From: Cyanobium sp. Tous-M-B4
Lineage (GTDB): Bacteria; Cyanobacteriota; Cyanobacteriia; PCC-6307; Cyanobiaceae
Assembly: GCF_024345395.1 (NCBI RefSeq)
Contig: NZ_JAGQBA010000003.1
Span: 124,001-188,000, forward strand
Length of the DNA: 64,000 nucleotides
Direction: 5' to 3'
Positions 53,119 through 60,349 of this stretch are shown in pieces. The notes under the pieces were generated by a model, which was given only the letters and a program-made list of their open reading frames with translations, was not told the DNA's origin and searched no databases. The translations under genes and the position numbers were made by a program. Each line of letters starts with the position of its first letter. Positions within the stretch are counted from its first letter, which is position 1.

Positions 53119-54045
53119 ATGCCCACCCGAGAACGTTGGACCGCCGCAATGGCGGGGCTTTGCCTGGCCCTGCTACCGGCGGTCCTCCCCCCAGTGCCCG
53201 CCTCTGTGCTGCCGGCGGCCGTAGCCCAGCCGGTGCTGCGCATCGGTGCTATCCCCGACCAAAACCCTGAAAAGCTGAATCGCCTTTACGGCTTGGTGGC
53301 CGATGAGCTCAGCCAGCAACTAGGTGTGAAGGTCGCCTACGTGCCCGTCACCGATTACACGGCTGCTGTGAGCGCCTTCCGCACCGGCAGTCTTGATCTG
53401 GTGTGGTTTGGCGGTCTCACCGGCGTGCAGGCCAGCCTGCAGAAACCCGGCTCCCAGATGCTTGCCCAGCGAGACATCGATGCGCAGTTTTATACCGTAT
53501 TTATCGCCAATGCCCGCAGTGGTATCAAGCCGATCCAGAACCAAAAGGGGCTAGTGGCCCTCAAAGGCAAGCGCTTCACCTTCGGCTCGGAAAGCTCCAC
53601 CTCCGGCCGGCTTATGCCCCAGTACTTCCTCGGCCAGGCCGGCGTCAAGTTGGCTGATTTCGCTGGCGGAGCCCCCGGCTTCAGTGGCAGCCACGACGCC
53701 ACCATCGCCCTGGTGCAGAGCGGCACCTACGACGCCGGCGCCGTCAATGAGCAGGTGTGGAAGAGCAGCCTGCGCAGCGGCAAGGCCAACCGCAGCAAGG
53801 TGGTGCAGATCTGGCGCACCCCCAGCTACCCCGACTACCTCTGGCTGGGCCAGCCCAACCTCGACCAGCGCTTCGGCAAGGGCTTCAGCGCCAAGCTGCG
53901 TCAATCGATCATCAGCTGGCGATCCACGGATCCGGAGCAGAAACAGATCCTCGGCCTGTTTGGTGCCCAGCAATTCACCACGGTGAAGCCGGGCGAATAC
54001 AAGCAGATCGAGCAGGTGGGGCGGCAAATCGGCAAGATCCGCTGA
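53119..54045 (+). CDS. Phosphonate/phosphate-type ABC transporter substrate-binding protein
   Basis: A 308-residue periplasmic binding protein of the PhnD/PtxB family. A signal peptide (about 12-36, ending VAQ) precedes LRIGAIPDQNPEKLNRLYGL, VPVTDYTAAVSAFRTGSLDL, VWFGGLTGVQAS, and GSESSTSGRLMPQYF, the region that binds the oxyanion in PhnD. Cyanobacterial relatives are variously named phosphonate, phosphite or selenate binding proteins, so the ligand is uncertain. The ATPase and permease genes are at 58020-60349, separated by the arginase/urea-channel module. Confidence 0.85.
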   Translation: MPTRERWTAAMAGLCLALLPAVLPPVPASVLPAAVAQPVLRIGAIPDQNPEKLNRLYGLVADELSQQLGVKVAYVPVTDYTAAVSAFRTGSLDLVWFGGLTGVQASLQKPGSQMLAQRDIDAQFYTVFIANARSGIKPIQNQKGLVALKGKRFTFGSESSTSGRLMPQYFLGQAGVKLADFAGGAPGFSGSHDATIALVQSGTYDAGAVNEQVWKSSLRSGKANRSKVVQIWRTPSYPDYLWLGQPNLDQRFGKGFSAKLRQSIISWRSTDPEQKQILGLFGAQQFTTVKPGEYKQIEQVGRQIGKIR

Positions 54046-54058
54046 CACAGGCGGGCAT

Positions 54059-54331
54059 TTGGGTCCAGCAGCATTCAGAATCAGTTTTCTCCAGAGCCTC
54101 AAATCCGTGGTCTGGTTGATTGATTTGGTCTTGCTGCTGGCCGGCTTTGTGCTTTGGAGCCGAGCCAACAATGAAGGCGATGAGGCTTGGTCCCTGTTTC
54201 TGCGCAGCATCGCCTTTCTTGATCTGGCCTTCATCACCTTCGGCAACGGCCAACTGCTGATCGAGATTCCCGCCTTGGCCCTGGCCCTGGCCCTGCCATC
54301 AGCGGCCAGCCTGGAGCGGCGGCGCAGCTAA
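54059..54331 (+). CDS. Small hypothetical membrane protein
   Basis: A 90-residue protein from a TTG at 54059; a GTG at 54107 would remove 16 residues. It has two hydrophobic helices (VVWLIDLVLLLAGFVLW and LLIEIPALALALALP) with a soluble loop (SRANNEGDEAWSLFLRSI) between them. No known family was recognised. It stands 13 bases after the binding-protein gene and could be co-transcribed. Confidence 0.5.
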   Translation: MGPAAFRISFLQSLKSVVWLIDLVLLLAGFVLWSRANNEGDEAWSLFLRSIAFLDLAFITFGNGQLLIEIPALALALALPSAASLERRRS

Positions 54332-54338
54332 AACGTCA

Positions 54339-54425
54339 ATGAATCCCCGCGGCCCTGACCTGATTGAGGTGTCCTTAGTGGCGCTAATCCTGGCGCTGAT
54401 CGTTTACCGCCTCACCCTGGCCTGA
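54339..54425 (+). CDS. Candidate 28-residue single-helix protein
   Basis: The frame begins ATG and reads MNPRGPDLIEVSLVALILAL, then IVYRLTLA. It is a short acidic N-terminus and one hydrophobic helix, the size of very small membrane subunits. It lies 7 bases after the 54331 stop, in the same direction, and just before the convergent urea-channel gene. With so few residues the call rests on composition alone. Confidence 0.35.
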   Translation: MNPRGPDLIEVSLVALILALIVYRLTLA

Positions 54426-54452
54426 AGGAGCACTCAGGTTGGGATGGCAGGT

Positions 54453-56090
54453 TCATGTAAGTAGCAGGTGGTCTACAAACTGCTGCCAGCTGAGGCCATC
54501 GGCAGAGCGGCTGAAGAGAAAGGACTCCTCCTCAGCATTAAGAGGTCGTTCGCCCACACTGGCCAGCAGGCGCCTGAGCTCGGCCGGATCAAGCCGGTCA
54601 TCGCCATTGGCATCGACTGGCAGCAAATAGTTGAGCAGCCGAGCCTCGCCAAGGCGCAAGCGCTGCAGGCGAAGCATCAGCTCACCAAACTCCTCGGCAT
54701 CCACCCGGCCATCTCCATCCAGGTCCATGGCCTGCAGCACACTTGCCAGCTGGGCTGCCAGCACTCCAACATCTCCGCCTTGCTGGGGATCAATCCCCAG
54801 ACCCCCGAGCAGCTCCGCCGCACTGATATCGCCATTGGCGTCTTGATCGAGTCGCTGAAACAAGGCCGACATTTGTTGCCGCATCTGCGCCGGAACCCGT
54901 CCAGCCAAAAAAACGCGGCGCTGGCCGGTGATTGCCAGGTGCAAGTTTTGACGAAAATCGGCAAGCAGGGTGCGGGCCAACACAAAGCGCTGGCGATGCT
55001 CCTCCGGGGTCAAGATGGCGTGCAGCGAAACCGGAATCAGGGCCGGCAAGGCACGACGCACCAGCAGCTGAATCACCCAGGTAGCAAGCACAAAAGCGAG
55101 GGTGAGCGAAGGCCAGCCCTGAGCTGGAGTGAAGCTCCAAGCAAACTGGATCAGGCTCGCCAGAGCCGCCCCTCCCAGACCCACCGCCAAGCTGGCCCAG
55201 CTGGGGGCGTAAAAAATCCCCCCCAAGGCAATCGCCACCAGCAAGCCGTTGTATCCCCAGAGGCCCTCGGCGATCGCGCCCAAAGGGACATCGAGCAGAA
55301 GGCCGGTTGCCATGCCATCCAGGGCACCAAGTAAACCCAGTCCCGCTGCAAGGGGGCTGGCGATGGCTGTGGCAATTAGCACCAGCAAGCCACTCCAGGG
55401 GTTTGAGCAGAGAAAAACCTGACCCGCGGATCGGAGCAGCCCATGGGTGAGAGCCTGGGATGTGCTGGCCAGCTCGGACATCGGGACCGGTTCGGCCAGG
55501 GCCAATGCTGCCCCCGACGCCAGGGAAGCCACCCCCAGCAAGCCCCAGGTAACAAGAATGAACGGGAGGGTGAGTGGTGGTAGCCCCACGGAACGGTTGA
55601 TTCCCCTGCCCAGCCCCTCAAGCAGCAAGGTGGTCAGCGCCCCACCAAGCAGCACCAAAGCAACCCAAATCAGGCTGGAGAGGGGGCTATCGAACTGGGC
55701 GAAATTGGCGACGGCGCAGCCCACCAGGGCGCCGTTAAAACCGTAGATGCCCTCGCTCCGCAACCCCTTCGCCAAGCGGAGGAGCCGAGCTGTGCAGTGA
55801 GAAGCTGCGGTACCCAGCAGAGCCAACAGGGCAAACCAAGGCGACTGCACCAGAAAGGCGAGCAGCAACACCAGGCCACTGAGGGGATTGTTGATGAAGA
55901 TCACCTGGGCCAAGCCACGCAAACCTGCCAGCAGCGAAACCAGGCCGGGGTTCAGTCGCGCGACAGGGCCGTGCAGCTGATGCAGGGTGCCCATGGTGGG
56001 CAGCAGCTGTTGAAGCCTGGAGGGCAGGTCAACAACAGGCTCGAGCAAATCTCTAAGCAGCTCCAAAGCCGATTTCACAGACCTATCCAT
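54453..56090 (-). CDS. Urea transporter (UT family) with C-terminal EF-hand region
   Basis: A 545-residue protein. Residues about 1-345 are a UT/SLC14-type urea channel made of two similar halves: VIFINNPLSGLVLLLAFLV with GIYGFNGALVGCAVA and PPLTLPFILVTW in half one, and LCSNPWSGLLVLIATA with GLWGYNGLLVAIALG and WPSLTLAFVLATW in half two. The soluble tail (about 365-545) has three canonical EF-hand loops (415-426 DQDANGDISAAE, 456-467 DLDGDGRVDAEE, 493-504 DANGDDRLDPAE) and a degenerate fourth (about 526-538). UT channels pass urea down its gradient. Four bases downstream of the arginase gene, so same transcript. Calcium gating is inference. Confidence 0.88.
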   Translation of the reverse strand: MDRSVKSALELLRDLLEPVVDLPSRLQQLLPTMGTLHQLHGPVARLNPGLVSLLAGLRGLAQVIFINNPLSGLVLLLAFLVQSPWFALLALLGTAASHCTARLLRLAKGLRSEGIYGFNGALVGCAVANFAQFDSPLSSLIWVALVLLGGALTTLLLEGLGRGINRSVGLPPLTLPFILVTWGLLGVASLASGAALALAEPVPMSELASTSQALTHGLLRSAGQVFLCSNPWSGLLVLIATAIASPLAAGLGLLGALDGMATGLLLDVPLGAIAEGLWGYNGLLVAIALGGIFYAPSWASLAVGLGGAALASLIQFAWSFTPAQGWPSLTLAFVLATWVIQLLVRRALPALIPVSLHAILTPEEHRQRFVLARTLLADFRQNLHLAITGQRRVFLAGRVPAQMRQQMSALFQRLDQDANGDISAAELLGGLGIDPQQGGDVGVLAAQLASVLQAMDLDGDGRVDAEEFGELMLRLQRLRLGEARLLNYLLPVDANGDDRLDPAELRRLLASVGERPLNAEEESFLFSRSADGLSWQQFVDHLLLT

Positions 56091-56094
56091 CGGC

Positions 56095-57582
56095 CTAGAG
56101 GCGGGCGTCGAGCACCTCTAACACATCCTGATAAACGCTAAGTGACACTTCAGCCAAGGTATTAAGACTATCTAGATGGGGGTTGATTTCACAGATTTCC
56201 CAGCAGCAAACCCTGGGGTCTGCCAGCAGGAACCGGGTTAACTGGCGAGCTTCATCAGCCCAAAGGCCACCAGGCACTGGCGTGCCGGTGCCCTTGCAGA
56301 TAGTGGAGTCCATGCAATCCACATCGAAGCTCACATAGATCAATTCGACTTGGCTGAGATGGTCTAGGCAGCGCTGAGCTGCCTGCTCTGGCCCCAATCG
56401 CCGAACATCTTCTGTAGTAACAACAGGTATAGAGAACTGCTCAAGCGTGACATTTTCAGCAGGCTCCGTATCACGAACTGCCACATAAATTAGATCTTCA
56501 AGCATGATCGACGGCGATCCTGTGCCATTGAGACATTGGAGCTCTTGCCAAAGCAACCTGGTCGTTGAATCGGGCTCGTTGATGGCCTCAATGGTGTTGT
56601 CGTGAGCCGAGGCAATGGCCAAAGGCATGCCGTGCATGTTGCCGGAGGGCGTGGTGTATGGGGAATGGATATCGGCATGGGCATCGATCCACACCACGCC
56701 TAGGCGCCGATCGGGATGGGCCTGGCGAATGCCAGCGATGGTTGAAGCAGCCGTGGAGTGATCGCCAGCGATCACGATTGGGAACAAGCCGCGATCCAGG
56801 GTGGAGGCCACCAATACGGCCGCGTCCCGCATAACGCCGGCAATCGTCTCGATATGGCGTGCGTGGGGGGTGGCGGTGGCGGTGGCGGAGCCCAGCTCCG
56901 AGGCTCGGGCTCCAGGCCTTGTCTGACCTTTTATTTCCTCAATCAAACGGTCGCTGATTTGGCGCAGCCCCTGCTGACGGGCAGCGGCCTGCTTGAGCAA
57001 ATCAATGCCAGAACCAGCTCCCGGCGTGCCAGCACCAAGGTCGCAATCGACCTCCACCAAGGCAACCCGGGAGCGGCTGGAGGCGTTTACATACTGAGCC
57101 AGGGTCTTTTTCAGTCGCTTCAGATCTGCAAGCGATAGCTCGATCACAGCATCGGCTTCGAGTAGCCGCAGAAATTCTTCAACGCTGATGCAGTTATCGC
57201 CATCTTGATCGAGGGCTGCCAGCAACCGATCTGCCTCTGGTAGATCGGCGCAGGAGGGCGCTAGGGCAGCTAGCAGCACTTCCAGCTCCTGAAAATTGAG
57301 GCTGCCGCTGCCATCACTATCTACTAATTCAAAGATCTCGCGCAGGCAGGAGGCGATAGCCAAACCTGGACGGCCTTGGGCCCAGCCGCTGAAAGCCCCC
57401 AGCCCCACCTCCCCATCGCAGCCAACCAGATCACGCAGAGCTTGGCGATCTTCAATAGCAATCACTCCAGCCATGCTGGCGAGAACATGCTCCACCTCAT
57501 CCACAGATATTTTCCCATCGCCGTCTTGATCAAACAGACTAAAAAGACCGACGAATTCATCTGAACGGGAGGATATTGACAC
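56095..57582 (-). CDS. Arginase-type ureohydrolase with N-terminal EF-hand region
   Basis: A 495-residue protein from a GTG at 57582. EF-hand-like loops: 18-29 (DQDGDGKISVDE), a degenerate one near 53-64, 88-99 (DSDGSGSLNFQE) and 125-136 (DQDGDNCISVEE). The ureohydrolase domain (about 170-495) has the metal ligands of the family: GDHS (His 275), WIDAHADIH (Asp 300, His 302, Asp 304) and SFDVDCMD (Asp 420, Asp 422). The loop SGNMHGMP and RDTEPAE match arginase (SGNxHG, RDVDPGE) better than agmatinase, so arginine to ornithine plus urea is the likely reaction. A guanidine-type hydrolase is not excluded. A TTG at 57804 would run into the divergent gene. Confidence 0.88.
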   Translation of the reverse strand: MSISSRSDEFVGLFSLFDQDGDGKISVDEVEHVLASMAGVIAIEDRQALRDLVGCDGEVGLGAFSGWAQGRPGLAIASCLREIFELVDSDGSGSLNFQELEVLLAALAPSCADLPEADRLLAALDQDGDNCISVEEFLRLLEADAVIELSLADLKRLKKTLAQYVNASSRSRVALVEVDCDLGAGTPGAGSGIDLLKQAAARQQGLRQISDRLIEEIKGQTRPGARASELGSATATATPHARHIETIAGVMRDAAVLVASTLDRGLFPIVIAGDHSTAASTIAGIRQAHPDRRLGVVWIDAHADIHSPYTTPSGNMHGMPLAIASAHDNTIEAINEPDSTTRLLWQELQCLNGTGSPSIMLEDLIYVAVRDTEPAENVTLEQFSIPVVTTEDVRRLGPEQAAQRCLDHLSQVELIYVSFDVDCMDSTICKGTGTPVPGGLWADEARQLTRFLLADPRVCCWEICEINPHLDSLNTLAEVSLSVYQDVLEVLDARL

Positions 57583-57611
57583 TATGAAAGGATCAAAATG
57601 ATTGAACAGAC

Positions 57612-57666
57612 TGCCAAAGCTGACTTTGGCAAATCCTGCTTTATACAGAACATAAAAGTCGATCAA
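57612..57666 (-). promoter_or_regulatory. Candidate promoter and operator of the arginase/urea-channel operon
   Basis: On the minus strand TTGATC (57666-57661) and TATAAA (57645-57640) are 15 bases apart, a short-spaced sigma-70-like pair. Just downstream is a perfect 8-bp inverted repeat, TGCCAAAG (57612-57619) and CTTTGGCA (57624-57631), with a 4-nt spacer, overlapping the expected start of transcription. It lies 29 bases before the GTG at 57582. Either a repressor operator or a leader hairpin is possible. Confidence 0.45.
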
Positions 57667-57756
57667 GCCCTCGGCAAACGTTCCCGTTGCTACTGAAATC
57701 AGAAAGTTTCCGGTTTGCAGGGGCCTAATCTGGATTTCGATGCCGCCCAGTTCGCC

Positions 57757-57987
57757 ATGGAGTTCAAGGGATCCCTGGACGAGCTCAAGGAGCTGGTTGC
57801 CCAACTAGGGGTGCCTTGTCAATGGCAACACAAGGGAGCTTTTGAGCTGGCCGTCTTTGAAGATGGCGTCAGCAATCTGAAGCTCAACTGGTGGCCCCGG
57901 GACGGAATCCTGCGATTGGTGGGAGATCCGGAGGTTCGCGACAGCCTGCAGGCAAAACTTCAAGAAATGCTGAGCGGCCAGGGCTAG
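57757..57987 (+). CDS. Small hypothetical protein upstream of phnC-type gene
   Basis: A 76-residue protein, MEFKGSLDELKELVAQLGVP, then a region ELAVFEDGVSNLKLNWWPRD and a C-terminal helix (VRDSLQAKLQEMLSGQ). It looks like a small alpha/beta protein; no family was recognised. The ATG at 57757 was taken; a TTG at 57715 would add 14 residues. It is divergent from the arginase gene and 32 bases upstream of the ABC ATPase gene. Confidence 0.6.
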   Translation: MEFKGSLDELKELVAQLGVPCQWQHKGAFELAVFEDGVSNLKLNWWPRDGILRLVGDPEVRDSLQAKLQEMLSGQG

Positions 57988-58019
57988 AAGCCAAATCACC
58001 AGATGAACCGGGCCCGCAT

Positions 58020-58766
58020 GTGACGTCCCTACTGATCCTCCAAGACATCACCGTCAAGGGCCGCAGCCAGCCTCGCCTTGATGGGGTGTCGCTTCAGGTT
58101 GATGCCGGTGAACGAATTGCCCTGCTGGGTCCCAGCGGTGCTGGCAAAAGCACCTTGCTTGCCGTGGCCAATGGCTTGCTGACCCCGCAGCAGGGCAGGG
58201 TGTTTTGGCAGGGGGAGGTACGGGCCCGCAGCGGACGGGCCCGGCGACGGCAGCAGGCCCGGATCGGCACCCTCTGGCAAGACCTGCGGCTGATCGAGGA
58301 GCTCACCGTGCAGCAAAACCTCAACGCCGCCCGGCTAGCCGTCTGGGGCTGGCCGCGGGCCCTGCTCAACCTGCTGATGCCCCTAGAGACCAAGGCCTGC
58401 ACAACGATGTTGCAGCGGCTTGATCTCGATCCAGCCCTACTCAACCAGCCCGTCTCCGCCCTCTCCGGCGGCCAGCGCCAGCGGGTAGCCCTTGCCCGAC
58501 TACTGCGACAGGAGCCCCAACTGCTACTAGCCGATGAACCCTTAGCCAGCCTTGATCCCCGCCTGGCCGGCGAGCTGTTAACCCTGCTGCTGGAGCTCGC
58601 AAACCCGCCTCGGGCCTTGCTGTTGAGCCTGCACCGTCCCGATTTGCTGTCTGGTTTCGATCGGGTGCTGGGGCTGCGGGCCGGGCGCCTTGTCTTTGAC
58701 CAACCCATGGCCAGCCTTGAGCCAGGCCAGCTGGAGGAGCTTTACGCCGGGACCCCAGGGGCATGA
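58020..58766 (+). CDS. phnC: Phosphonate-type ABC transporter ATP-binding protein
   Basis: A 248-residue ABC ATPase. Walker A GPSGAGKSTLLAVANGLL, Q-loop TLWQDLRLIEELTV, signature VSALSGGQRQRVALARLL, Walker B LLLADEPLASLDP and switch His SLHRPD are all present. The Q-loop ATPase most resembles PhnC, which powers phosphonate, phosphite or related oxyanion uptake. The start is a GTG at 58020. The stop overlaps the permease ATG (ATGA). Confidence 0.88.
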   Translation: MTSLLILQDITVKGRSQPRLDGVSLQVDAGERIALLGPSGAGKSTLLAVANGLLTPQQGRVFWQGEVRARSGRARRRQQARIGTLWQDLRLIEELTVQQNLNAARLAVWGWPRALLNLLMPLETKACTTMLQRLDLDPALLNQPVSALSGGQRQRVALARLLRQEPQLLLADEPLASLDPRLAGELLTLLLELANPPRALLLSLHRPDLLSGFDRVLGLRAGRLVFDQPMASLEPGQLEELYAGTPGA

Positions 58767-60349
58767 GACCAGCGGCGCCGTTGTGGGTGTTGCTGCCCGC
58801 CCTAATTGTGCTGCCGCTGCTGGCATTGCTGCCAGGAATCAGCCATGGCGGTGGCTGGGAGCTGGTGGGGCAATTTTCTGCCGCAGCCCTGCGGCCCTCC
58901 CTGGATCCAATAGTGCTGGGCTCGGTGCTGGGCGGCCTAGCCGTCACAGCCGGCATGGCCCTGCTGGGCTGGGCCGGCAGCCTGGTGTTGGGTTTGGTGC
59001 TGGGAATCGCTAGTTCAAGGGTGGTGTGGCGCACCTGCTACGGCAGCGCCGCTCCAGCCAGCTGGATACGCCGCCTACTAGCCATACCGCGCTCGATTCA
59101 CGAACTGCTCTGGGGGCTGCTGCTGCTGCAGGTGGTCGGGCTGCAACCAGTGGTAGCGGTAGTGGCAATCGCCATTCCCTTTGGAGCGCTGGTAGCCCGG
59201 GTGGTCAGCGACCTGCTGGATGCCCTGCCCACCGCCAGCCTGGAGGCCCTGCGCTGCGGCGGCAGCCCCGCCCCAACCGCCCTGTTCACGGCCCTGGGGC
59301 CGCCCCTGCTGCCCCAGGTGATCAGCTACAGCGGCTACCGGCTCGAATGCGCCTTGCGCAGCGCCACCCTGCTGGGAGTATTTGGCCTGGGCGGGCTGGG
59401 CACCGAGCTGCGCCTCACCCTGCAATCGCTGGCCTTCAACGAGCTCTGGAGCGGCCTGTGGGCGTTGCTGGCGGTGATGCTGCTGCTGGAAGCCCTAATG
59501 GGCTGGCTGCGGCGGCGCTGGGCCATGCCGGCACGGCTGGGGCTAAGCCAGCGTGGAGTGGGCAGTCAGGGCCAGGAAATGGTGGCTGTAGCGATGGCCA
59601 TGCTCCCCGTGCTGCTGCTGGTGGCCTGGCGCCTGGAAGTGCAGCCCGCCACCCTGTTGCAGTGGCAAGGCCTACCACCGCTGGGCGCCGCCGACTGGGG
59701 AGCCGTGGCCACCCTGCCCTGGCCGAGCCTGATCGGCAACACCCTGCTGCTCACCTTGGTAGCCGCGGCCCTAGCTGTGGGGTTGGCGCCGCTGCTGCTG
59801 CTGTTTGCGACGCCCTGGCCGGCGGCGGGCGCGCTGGTGCGGGGACTGTGGGCCCTGGGCCGGCTATGGCCGCCACCACTAACGGCGCTGTTGCTGCTGT
59901 TTGTGCTCCAGCCCGGGGTGCTCACAGGCGCCCTTGCCCTGGGCTTCCACAACCTGGGCATTCTCGGACGCCTGCTCCTAGAAGCGGCCGAAACCAGTGG
60001 CGGCAACAAAGAGCAGGCCCTGCTGGCCGCAGGAGTGGCTCCGCGCCTGGCCCTGCTCTACGGCCGCTTCAGCGGCCTGGCCCGGCCCTACTTGGCCTAT
60101 GGCGCCTACCGGGCTGATGTGATTTTGCGCGAATCGGTGGTAGTGGGGCTGGTGGGGGCCACGGGCCTGGGCAGCCAGCTGCTGGAAGCCCTGAGTTCGT
60201 TTGCCGGCGACCAACTGCTGGCCCTGGTGCTGGCCTATGCGCTGCTGACCTTGCTGGGGGAAGATCTCAGCGACCGCGCACGCCAGTGGCTGCTGGAGAC
60301 CCCCCATGGTGATGGCCATCCCCAGGAAGCTGGTGGCACTTGGCGATAG
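58763..60349 (+). CDS. phnE: Phosphonate-type ABC transporter permease, fused double unit
   Basis: A 528-residue membrane protein, about twice the length of a single PhnE permease. Each half has about six helices and an EAA-type cytoplasmic loop: DALPTASLEALRCGGSPAP in the first and EAAETSGGNKEQALLAAGV in the second. So both transmembrane units of the transporter are joined in one chain. Genes phnC and phnE overlap. The substrate follows the binding protein and is not certain. Confidence 0.87.
   Translation: MRPAAPLWVLLPALIVLPLLALLPGISHGGGWELVGQFSAAALRPSLDPIVLGSVLGGLAVTAGMALLGWAGSLVLGLVLGIASSRVVWRTCYGSAAPASWIRRLLAIPRSIHELLWGLLLLQVVGLQPVVAVVAIAIPFGALVARVVSDLLDALPTASLEALRCGGSPAPTALFTALGPPLLPQVISYSGYRLECALRSATLLGVFGLGGLGTELRLTLQSLAFNELWSGLWALLAVMLLLEALMGWLRRRWAMPARLGLSQRGVGSQGQEMVAVAMAMLPVLLLVAWRLEVQPATLLQWQGLPPLGAADWGAVATLPWPSLIGNTLLLTLVAAALAVGLAPLLLLFATPWPAAGALVRGLWALGRLWPPPLTALLLLFVLQPGVLTGALALGFHNLGILGRLLLEAAETSGGNKEQALLAAGVAPRLALLYGRFSGLARPYLAYGAYRADVILRESVVVGLVGATGLGSQLLEALSSFAGDQLLALVLAYALLTLLGEDLSDRARQWLLETPHGDGHPQEAGGTWR

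Follow-up and report, generated by a model that had tools for sequence, protein, structure and literature searches.

Two neighboring genes in a cyanobacterial genome each join a calmodulin-like domain to a protein of urea metabolism, and the question they raise is whether enzyme and channel form one calcium-responsive module. The genes lie in the window, by which we mean the whole 64,000-nucleotide stretch of the Cyanobium sp. Tous-M-B4 genome that was analyzed. To our knowledge, few effectors of bacterial Ca2+ signaling have been proven, and the pair offers two easily assayed proteins with calmodulin-like domains. Through it, a connection of Ca2+ with arginine nitrogen and urea exchange can be tested directly. 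A cyanobacterial arginase gene has so far been elusive, and the window enzyme is a candidate. According to PMC2242806 and PMC4234267, none of Sll0228, Sll1077, and Alr2310 proved to be an arginase. Our literature search found no description of an EF-hand arginase/EF-hand urea channel pair.

Results

As an earlier note on this DNA had described, two minus-strand genes stand four bases apart (Table 1). The first encodes a member of the ureohydrolase superfamily (PF00491 at 165.6 bits against a gathering score of 22), with three N-terminal stretches matching Pfam EF-hand_1 (5.6e-20). Every motif read earlier from the translation is there, namely GDHS, DAHAD, SGNMHG, RDTEPAE, and SFDVD. All six metal ligands are retained (H275, D300, H302, D304, D420, and D422, which we take to be the equivalents of rat H101, D124, H126, D128, D232, and D234), and they are invariant across 36 aligned rows where covered, one row ending early. 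H317 and S313, presumably the proton-shuttle histidine and the serine that binds the alpha-carboxylate, are retained as well, as are the alpha-amino group anchors E373 and E376. Among N130, S137, D183, and E186 (numbered after rat arginase), which we take to be the alpha-carboxylate and alpha-amino anchors, the serine and E186 are kept, while N130 has become histidine and D183 glutamate in 13 of 13 EF-hand-bearing rows, two pocket substitutions that the earlier note does not mention.

The second gene encodes a UT-type channel with two halves, as had been claimed. PF03253 reaches 236.9 bits against a gathering score of 25, and the halves carry QVIFINNPLSG and QVFLCSNPWSG. Compared by Foldseek with 19 solved UT chains, the channel gives TM scores by target length of 0.71–0.88, and its matches include human UT-A/UT-B and Desulfovibrio UT. 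Its score for the bacterial yut equivalog TIGR03441 is below the cut-off (152 vs 274.6 bits). The C-terminal tail matches Pfam EF-hand_5 (9.7e-13). A statement in PMC10392092 holds that Cyanobacteria have no urea transporters besides the ABC type; UT-family channels are present in the cyanobacterial genomes examined here, against that statement. That every cyanobacterial UT bears EF-hands is ruled out: among 223 Cyanobacteriia genomes, 13 encode a UT, which carries EF-hands in seven and an M23 peptidase domain in six.

Table 1. Features of the gene pair, in window coordinates
Feature	Position	Strand	Details
EF-hand arginase-type ureohydrolase	56095..57582	(-)	495 aa, GTG start
Arginase catalytic domain, residues 172-480	56143..57069	(-)	Pfam PF00491 2.2e-48
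Arginase EF-hand loop 1, residues 18-29, DQDGDGKISVDE	57496..57531	(-)	canonical, 11/13 EF-bearing rows
Arginase degenerate EF-hand 2, ~residues 54-65	57388..57423	(-)	full ligand pattern in 0/13 rows, by eye
Arginase EF-hand loop 3, residues 88-99, DSDGSGSLNFQE	57286..57321	(-)	canonical, 13/13 rows
Arginase EF-hand loop 4, residues 125-136, DQDGDNCISVEE	57175..57210	(-)	canonical, 13/13 rows
Gap, arginase stop to channel start codon	56091..56094	(-)	4 bases; identical gap length in G045, G106
EF-hand UT-family urea channel	54453..56090	(-)	545 aa
UT channel domain, residues 55-343	55062..55928	(-)	Pfam PF03253 3.6e-70; Foldseek
Channel EF-hand loop 1, residues 415-426	54813..54848	(-)	canonical, 19/19 rows
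Channel EF-hand loop 2, residues 456-467	54690..54725	(-)	canonical, 18/19 rows
Channel EF-hand loop 3, residues 493-504	54579..54614	(-)	canonical, 18/19 rows
Channel degenerate EF-hand 4, ~residues 526-537	54480..54515	(-)	by eye, 19 rows

Three canonical EF-hands and one degenerate unit had been counted at the N terminus of the enzyme and again at the C terminus of the channel, and both counts hold. The canonical loops are D/N-rich, 12 residues long, with E at position 12, and score above the Pfam cut-offs. In alignments of both proteins, the loop ligands are near-invariant and the positions between them variable. Relatives retain the fusions even where identity falls to 43% for the arginase and 34% for the channel, and dN/dS is 0.09–0.40 among close relatives; consequently, the fusions are not chance joinings. 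A single one of the three EF loops survives in the Burkholderiales channel, two enzyme copies of the lineage (G005 and G460) lack an EF-hand match, and broken cases occur among other carriers (G075, G076, and Moorena G462).

Adjacency in related genomes had been set beforehand as a test, and the pair largely passed it: of 15 genomes found to have both genes, 12 place them side by side, a Burkholderiales bin among these, and this holds in several genomic settings. The genes are unlinked in the other three. Among 339 Cyanobacteriota genomes, the arginase lineage occurs in nine, the EF-hand channel in the same nine, and the channel alone in one more. The four arginase genera all fall within the five (of 128) that have the channel. 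The pair thus co-occurs in distant cyanobacteria and in one Burkholderiales bin. A wide distribution in Burkholderiales is not supported, as the sole match at E <= 1e-60 in 300 genomes of that bin's order was the bin itself (G459). The arginase lineage forms one clade, and the arginase and channel trees have in common a split into filamentous, Burkholderiales, and Cyanobiaceae branches. The LacPavin bin G460 groups with G141, G101, and G075 in the arginase tree (100/99) and falls outside them in the channel tree; therefore, the two genes have not always moved together. Upstream of the pair, a GTAN9AC element is found 88–111 bases away in 6 of 13 regions and the exact GTAN8TAC in none of the 13, and a conserved NtcA site is unproven. 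No Pfam family matches the small divergent gene next to the arginase (57715-57987).

These results sustain one part of the proposal that the pair is a single module. That the two genes belong together is supported by their adjacency, their distant co-occurrence, and their constrained loops. That they are an obligate pair is weakened: G030, G102, G132, and G273 have an intact EF-hand channel but no arginase of this lineage, the G005 and G460 enzymes are EF-less, and in two filamentous genomes the channel adjoins an EF-hand nucleotidase. Its recurrence in distantly related bacteria makes the pair look like a real module, undescribed until now, by which the making and the passage of urea may be coupled to calcium.

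All 12 Cyanobiaceae whose channel is intact have urease (108 of 151 overall), as do 20 of 22 genomes with channel or arginase, the exceptions being bins G457 and G459. UrtA, the component of the ATP-driven urea importer that binds the substrate, is likewise found in all 12 (102 of 151 overall). UrtA rules out the channel as sole urea importer, and for Cyanobiaceae urease rules out urea as an unusable end product. A link to cyanophycin is not supported: the 12 gave no synthetase match at E <= 1e-100, and matches occurred in 5 of 151 genomes, one above the cut-off.

Discussion

We favor a co-transcribed, mobile, calcium-responsive arginine-to-urea module, and we regard this reading as evenly balanced between right and wrong; this applies to Ca2+ being bound and acting as the switch, to arginine being the substrate, and to the direction in which urea flows. 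The four-base gap suggests co-transcription. A cytosolic arginase-type enzyme would convert arginine to ornithine and urea, and urea would equilibrate across the membrane through the UT-family channel. Both calmodulin-like EF-hand domains would face the cytosol; for the channel tail, we infer this from known UT structures, which we take as a guide to its placement. A rise in cytosolic Ca2+ would then switch on enzyme and channel together, with the channel opening just when urea is in excess, for example, during enzyme activity. Because the Cyanobiaceae hosts have urease and UrtA, a permanently open pore would leak the urea concentrated by the importer, and this gives a reason for gating. Since a gated channel would be expected to open on urea excess, we favor net release, or pressure relief, over uptake.

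The identity of the substrate bears on this reading. Of the NCBIfam models, rocF fits the enzyme best by far (183 bits), with hutG at 66 and agmatinase models at 54–58. The enzyme scores under the TIGR01229 rocF equivalog cut-off (183.1 vs 227.6 bits), as do its relatives L068 and L069 (209.2 and 214.0 bits); an EF-less relative from Bacteroidota (L074) exceeds it at 233.7 bits. Agmatine is a possible substrate because of N130H and D183E and because a Bacteroidota neighbor resembles arginine decarboxylase, such a gene lying near the relative at five of eight loci by eye, three of these profile-checked. The substitutions, the neighbor, and the missed cut-off would suit a non-arginase that hydrolyzes agmatine or another guanidino compound, with the channel handling the resulting urea. 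However, S313, E373, and E376 are retained, the agmatinase models score low, and a distinct agmatinase gene in the same genome (L065) exceeds its own cut-off; we consider such an enzyme highly improbable here. In a different role, the EF-hands would be docking or assembly parts and not switches, and would hold the enzyme against the channel or membrane, placing urea formation at the pore. Both protein families, arginases and UT channels, are known as trimers, so matched docking is possible, and the three-plus-one layout in both partners and the tight gene coupling are in its favor. This is improbable too, with an enzyme model at pTM 0.65 and genes unlinked in three genomes.

It is also conceivable, if rather unlikely, that the channel is the constant part, a Ca2+-gated urea valve of cyanobacteria whose EF-tagged nitrogen-salvage hydrolases vary. 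No less doubtfully, picocyanobacteria would pair it with an optional arginase, and filamentous cyanobacteria with a 5'-nucleotidase plus a nucleoside hydrolase. Three of 12 Cyanobiaceae, and G273 as well, retain the channel but have no such arginase; within 4 kb of it, the opposite strand of G273 encodes a nucleoside hydrolase and an EF-less 5'-nucleotidase. In G808 and Symploca G458, the EF-hand channel is followed by an EF-hand-bearing 5'-nucleotidase and an inosine-uridine nucleoside hydrolase. However, the EF-nucleotidase neighbor is limited to these two genomes, G884 and G337 have neither it nor an arginase near the channel, and in six of six sampled Cyanobiaceae with an intact EF-hand arginase the channel adjoins it. 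Given the arginase-less channels, the EF-less enzyme copies, and the nucleotidase and nucleoside hydrolase neighbors, the channel may serve several EF-tagged nitrogen-salvage enzymes. We tentatively entertain, as somewhat doubtful, a Ca2+-switched nitrogen-salvage system in which EF-tagged hydrolases (arginase, or 5'-nucleotidase plus nucleoside hydrolase) share an EF-gated urea channel. If this is true, one Ca2+ signal would start the breakdown of nitrogen-rich metabolites and open a path for urea. We know of no earlier directly Ca2+-gated UT channel or directly Ca2+-controlled arginase, and these would be the first of each, as far as is known.

For the calcium-responsive arginine-to-urea module that we prefer, several observations count on the other side: intact channels without arginase, EF-less enzymes, the broken cases, unlinked genes in 3 of 15 genomes, the discordant placement of G460, the two loops lost in the Burkholderiales channel, N130H with D183E, and the arginine-decarboxylase-like neighbor in Bacteroidota.

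The joining of an EF-hand sensor to an effector domain is a principle shared with the bacterial calmodulin-like fusions covered in PMC7016017, from which the words "arginase" and "urea" are absent, and with Ca2+-controlled fusions such as calredoxin and NOX5 (PMC4911631 and PMC7317449). With cyanobacterial Sll1077, a guanidine-degrading ureohydrolase according to PMC8390497, the window enzyme has the superfamily in common. In G141, an agmatinase-type gene located ~4 kb away from the pair, which we take as Sll1077-type, is 26.6% identical to the window enzyme over 237 residues and matches no EF-hand model; judged through this stand-in, close kinship is lacking, and rocF is the model that fits the window enzyme best. 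The RocF arginases of Thermus thermophilus and Bacillus caldovelox share its fold, six metal ligands, proton-shuttle histidine, TPSGNMHG-type loop, and GTGTPVPGGL, whereas the window enzyme adds the N-terminal EF-hand domain, N130H and D183E, and a rocF score under the cut-off. The channel has its UT domain in common with the UT-M23 fusions of Cyanobacteriota (L198-L203), whose tails are peptidases where the window channel has EF-hands. With human UT-A/UT-B and Desulfovibrio vulgaris UT, it shares the two-half fold, the NNPLSG/NPWSG-type motifs, and ~30% identity, to which it adds a C-terminal four-unit EF-hand domain and an adjoining arginase gene.

The EF-hand enzyme and channel

Two genes of the window, separated by a gap of 4 bases, encode an arginase-type enzyme and a UT-family urea channel, both bearing EF-hands (Table). 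By Pfam, the enzyme has EF-hands in its first ~145 residues and an Arginase domain at residues 172-480 (2.2e-48), while the channel has a UT domain at residues 55-343 (3.6e-70) and EF-hands in its last ~145 residues. In sequence searches of the PDB, the enzyme matched arginases and centrin/calmodulin, and the channel matched urea transporters and calmodulin. The AlphaFold models resemble solved arginases (mean pLDDT 77.7, pTM 0.65) and solved UT channels (mean pLDDT 82.7, pTM 0.78), respectively. The arginase start was assigned to the GTG at 57582 because G106 likewise begins with GTG there and, in G045, an ATG lies one codon upstream (G, comparison genome; L, locus from one). The host is a Cyanobium-like picocyanobacterium of the family named Cyanobiaceae in GTDB. 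Among the best 80 of at least 577 related stretches in a GTDB scan, its closest named relative is Cyanobium sp. T1B-Tous, with an arginase at 81% to that of the window.

Table. Coordinates of the pair, the divergent neighbour, and hydrolases beside the channel elsewhere
Feature	Position	Strand	Remark
Arginase-type protein, 495 residues	57582-56095	minus	gene coordinates
Channel protein, 545 residues	56090-54453	minus	gene coordinates
Conserved ~90-aa protein gene	57715-57987	+	divergent from arginase
EF-hand 5'-nucleotidase and inosine-uridine nucleoside hydrolase	L205 2555-5375; L209 2861-5736		directly downstream of EF-channel in two filamentous cyanobacteria

Canonical EF loops (D at 1, D/N/S at 3 and 5, D/E at 12) were counted in EF-bearing copies readable whole or nearly whole. 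Outside this set are the enzymes that lack EF-hands (G005, G460) or are broken (G075, G076, G462), and the channels that are broken (G023, G148) or came to light later (G273, G808, G884). Arginase loops starting at residues 18, 88, and 125 are canonical in 11/13, 13/13, and 13/13 rows, and channel loops 415, 456, and 493 in 19/19, 18/19, and 18/19; a Burkholderiales channel is the sole row failing the last two. Judged by eye, each protein also has a degenerate unit, near residue 54 in the arginase and last in the channel. Among close relatives, pairwise dN/dS was 0.09-0.19 for parts of the arginase and 0.11-0.40 for parts of the channel.

Distribution, adjacency, and history

Channel matches were found in 15 of 151 Cyanobiaceae, 12 of them full length; the others are split (G023), a fragment (G148), or weak and EF-only (G064). 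The split in G023 (L062 7864-11281) is apparently due to an insertion sequence, as judged by eye. Among the 12 genomes with a full-length channel, six have an intact EF-arginase, three an altered one (frame-broken in G075, without EF-hands in G005, internally deleted in G076), and three (G030, G102, G132) no arginase of the lineage. The enzyme search itself matched 144/151 genomes, most of the other matches being weak and partial, to other ureohydrolases. With the same flanks, G062 holds both genes, G030 the channel alone, and G148 remnants; these are one site in different states. G075 also carries, far from the pair, an extra truncated copy of part of the channel EF-hand tail (L064 3776-4162, minus strand).

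Across 339 Cyanobacteriota genomes, the enzyme alignment matched 18 at 1e-20, nine of which hold this lineage; in G348 and eight others the match is limited to catalytic parts. The relative in G348 lacks EF-hands, and this genome has no channel. The channel occurs in ten of the 339, comprising all nine holders of the arginase lineage and G273, which carries the channel by itself. By genus (n=128), four have the arginase, five the channel, and four both, for which the chance is 4.7e-7 assuming independent genera, which is only partly true. The best 80 of at least 577 stretches in the GTDB scan add to the lineage Symploca, Moorena (frame-broken), Pleurocapsa, the LacPavin bin (no EF-hands), two Burkholderiales bins, and an HRS bin labeled Bifidobacterium yet closest to Cyanobiaceae. 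The genome search gave no full channel match in two enzyme-bearing genomes, G461 and G462 (Moorena). G808 and G884 carry the channel, their arginase lookup covering the stretches taken around it. In six other cyanobacteria (L198-L203), a UT urea channel is joined to an M23 peptidase domain.

The two genes are adjacent in 12 of the 15 genomes found with both, a count that takes Pleurocapsa by inference and includes among the 15 G005, G075, and G460 (LacPavin), whose enzyme EF parts are missing or broken. In Pleurocapsa, the arginase runs off a contig end and a second contig opens with arginase C-terminal codons, then the channel. Direct adjacency is seen in T1B-Tous, the HRS bin, and one Burkholderiales bin; in G337, Symploca, and LacPavin the genes lie on separate contigs. 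Together with its EF-less members, the EF-arginase lineage forms a single clade (100/100) distinct from the Bacteroidota enzymes, and the arginase and channel trees share a filamentous/Burkholderiales/Cyanobiaceae split. The one supported conflict concerns LacPavin, whose enzyme groups with G141/G101/G075 and whose channel falls outside them.

Since neighborhoods differ between genomes, we infer that the pair has moved as a unit. By eye, a glnA-like gene lies near it in G101 and G075, and nad-type genes beside it in Burkholderiales, with an FAD_binding_2 match. About 4 kb from the pair in G141 (L053 2650-6045) are genes for an agmatinase-type enzyme (probably a guanidine hydrolase), for a GTPase of the HypB/CobW type, and for a transporter binding protein of the NMT1 type; with the pair, they would make up a local urea-producing island. 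The gene divergent from the window arginase, whose product has no Pfam match, has homologues adjoining the arginase in G045, G106, T1B-Tous, G141, and G075, and adjoining a phnD-like gene in G023. Phosphonate-type ABC transporter genes flank the window pair on both sides. Within 53119-60349, the pair is an insertion of opposite orientation that separates a phosphonate-type binding-protein gene from the ABC ATPase and permease genes belonging to it.

Substrate and proposed mechanism

When 13 EF-bearing enzymes were aligned with 23 relatives from Bacteroidota, the six metal ligands proved to be kept wherever covered, as did H317, D371, E376, and E465 (rat H141, D181, E186, and E277). S313 (rat S137) is invariant across EF rows and is Thr in 4/23 Bacteroidota rows. 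Every row has His at the position of rat N130 and Glu at that of D183. The best model for the window enzyme is rocF, yet its score is below the equivalog cut-off (183.1 vs 227.6); the single Bacteroidota relative scanned exceeds it. Inspection by eye placed an arginine-decarboxylase-like gene close to the relative in 5/8 Bacteroidota loci, and three scanned neighbor genes match arginine-decarboxylase models with scores under the cut-offs. Because of these pocket changes, the missed rocF cut-off, and such neighbors, agmatine is a possible substrate of the EF-hand enzyme. The window genome also encodes a distinct agmatinase that scores over its cut-off.

The reading that we favor, to which we would give an even chance, is a putative Ca2+-triggered breakdown of arginine with urea release. 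Urease and UrtA are each present in all 12 Cyanobiaceae whose channel is intact, compared with 108/151 (urease) and 102/151 (UrtA) overall. A passive urea pore would dissipate the urea concentrated by the importer, and gating of the channel is plausible because an open pore would undo the importer's work. With no signal sequence seen by eye in the enzyme, and with the termini of UT proteins of known structure lying in the cytosol, the Ca2+ sensed by both EF domains would be that of the cytosol.

Downstream of the EF-channel in G808 and Symploca come a 5'-nucleotidase, itself bearing EF-hands at the C terminus, and an inosine-uridine nucleoside hydrolase; in G273, the opposite strand nearby encodes a nucleoside hydrolase and a 5'-nucleotidase that lacks EF-hands. 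Purine nucleotides are in principle a further urea source. These neighbors suggest that the channel is the constant part and EF-tagged hydrolases its variable partners.

Comparison with known systems

In the accessible portions of the open-licence literature, we found no description of an arginase with EF-hands, of a urea channel with EF-hands, or of the pair, nor does the available text of PMC9948718 hold content bearing on it. Bacterial EF-hand fusions are covered in PMC7016017, from the available part of which arginase and urea are absent. As far as the accessible text of the respective papers goes, cyanobacterial ureohydrolases that were tested are not arginases (PMC2242806, PMC4234267), and no non-ABC urea transporter was found in Cyanobacteria (PMC10392092). 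In soil crusts, according to the part available, urea serves as a nitrogen carrier (PMC11844795).
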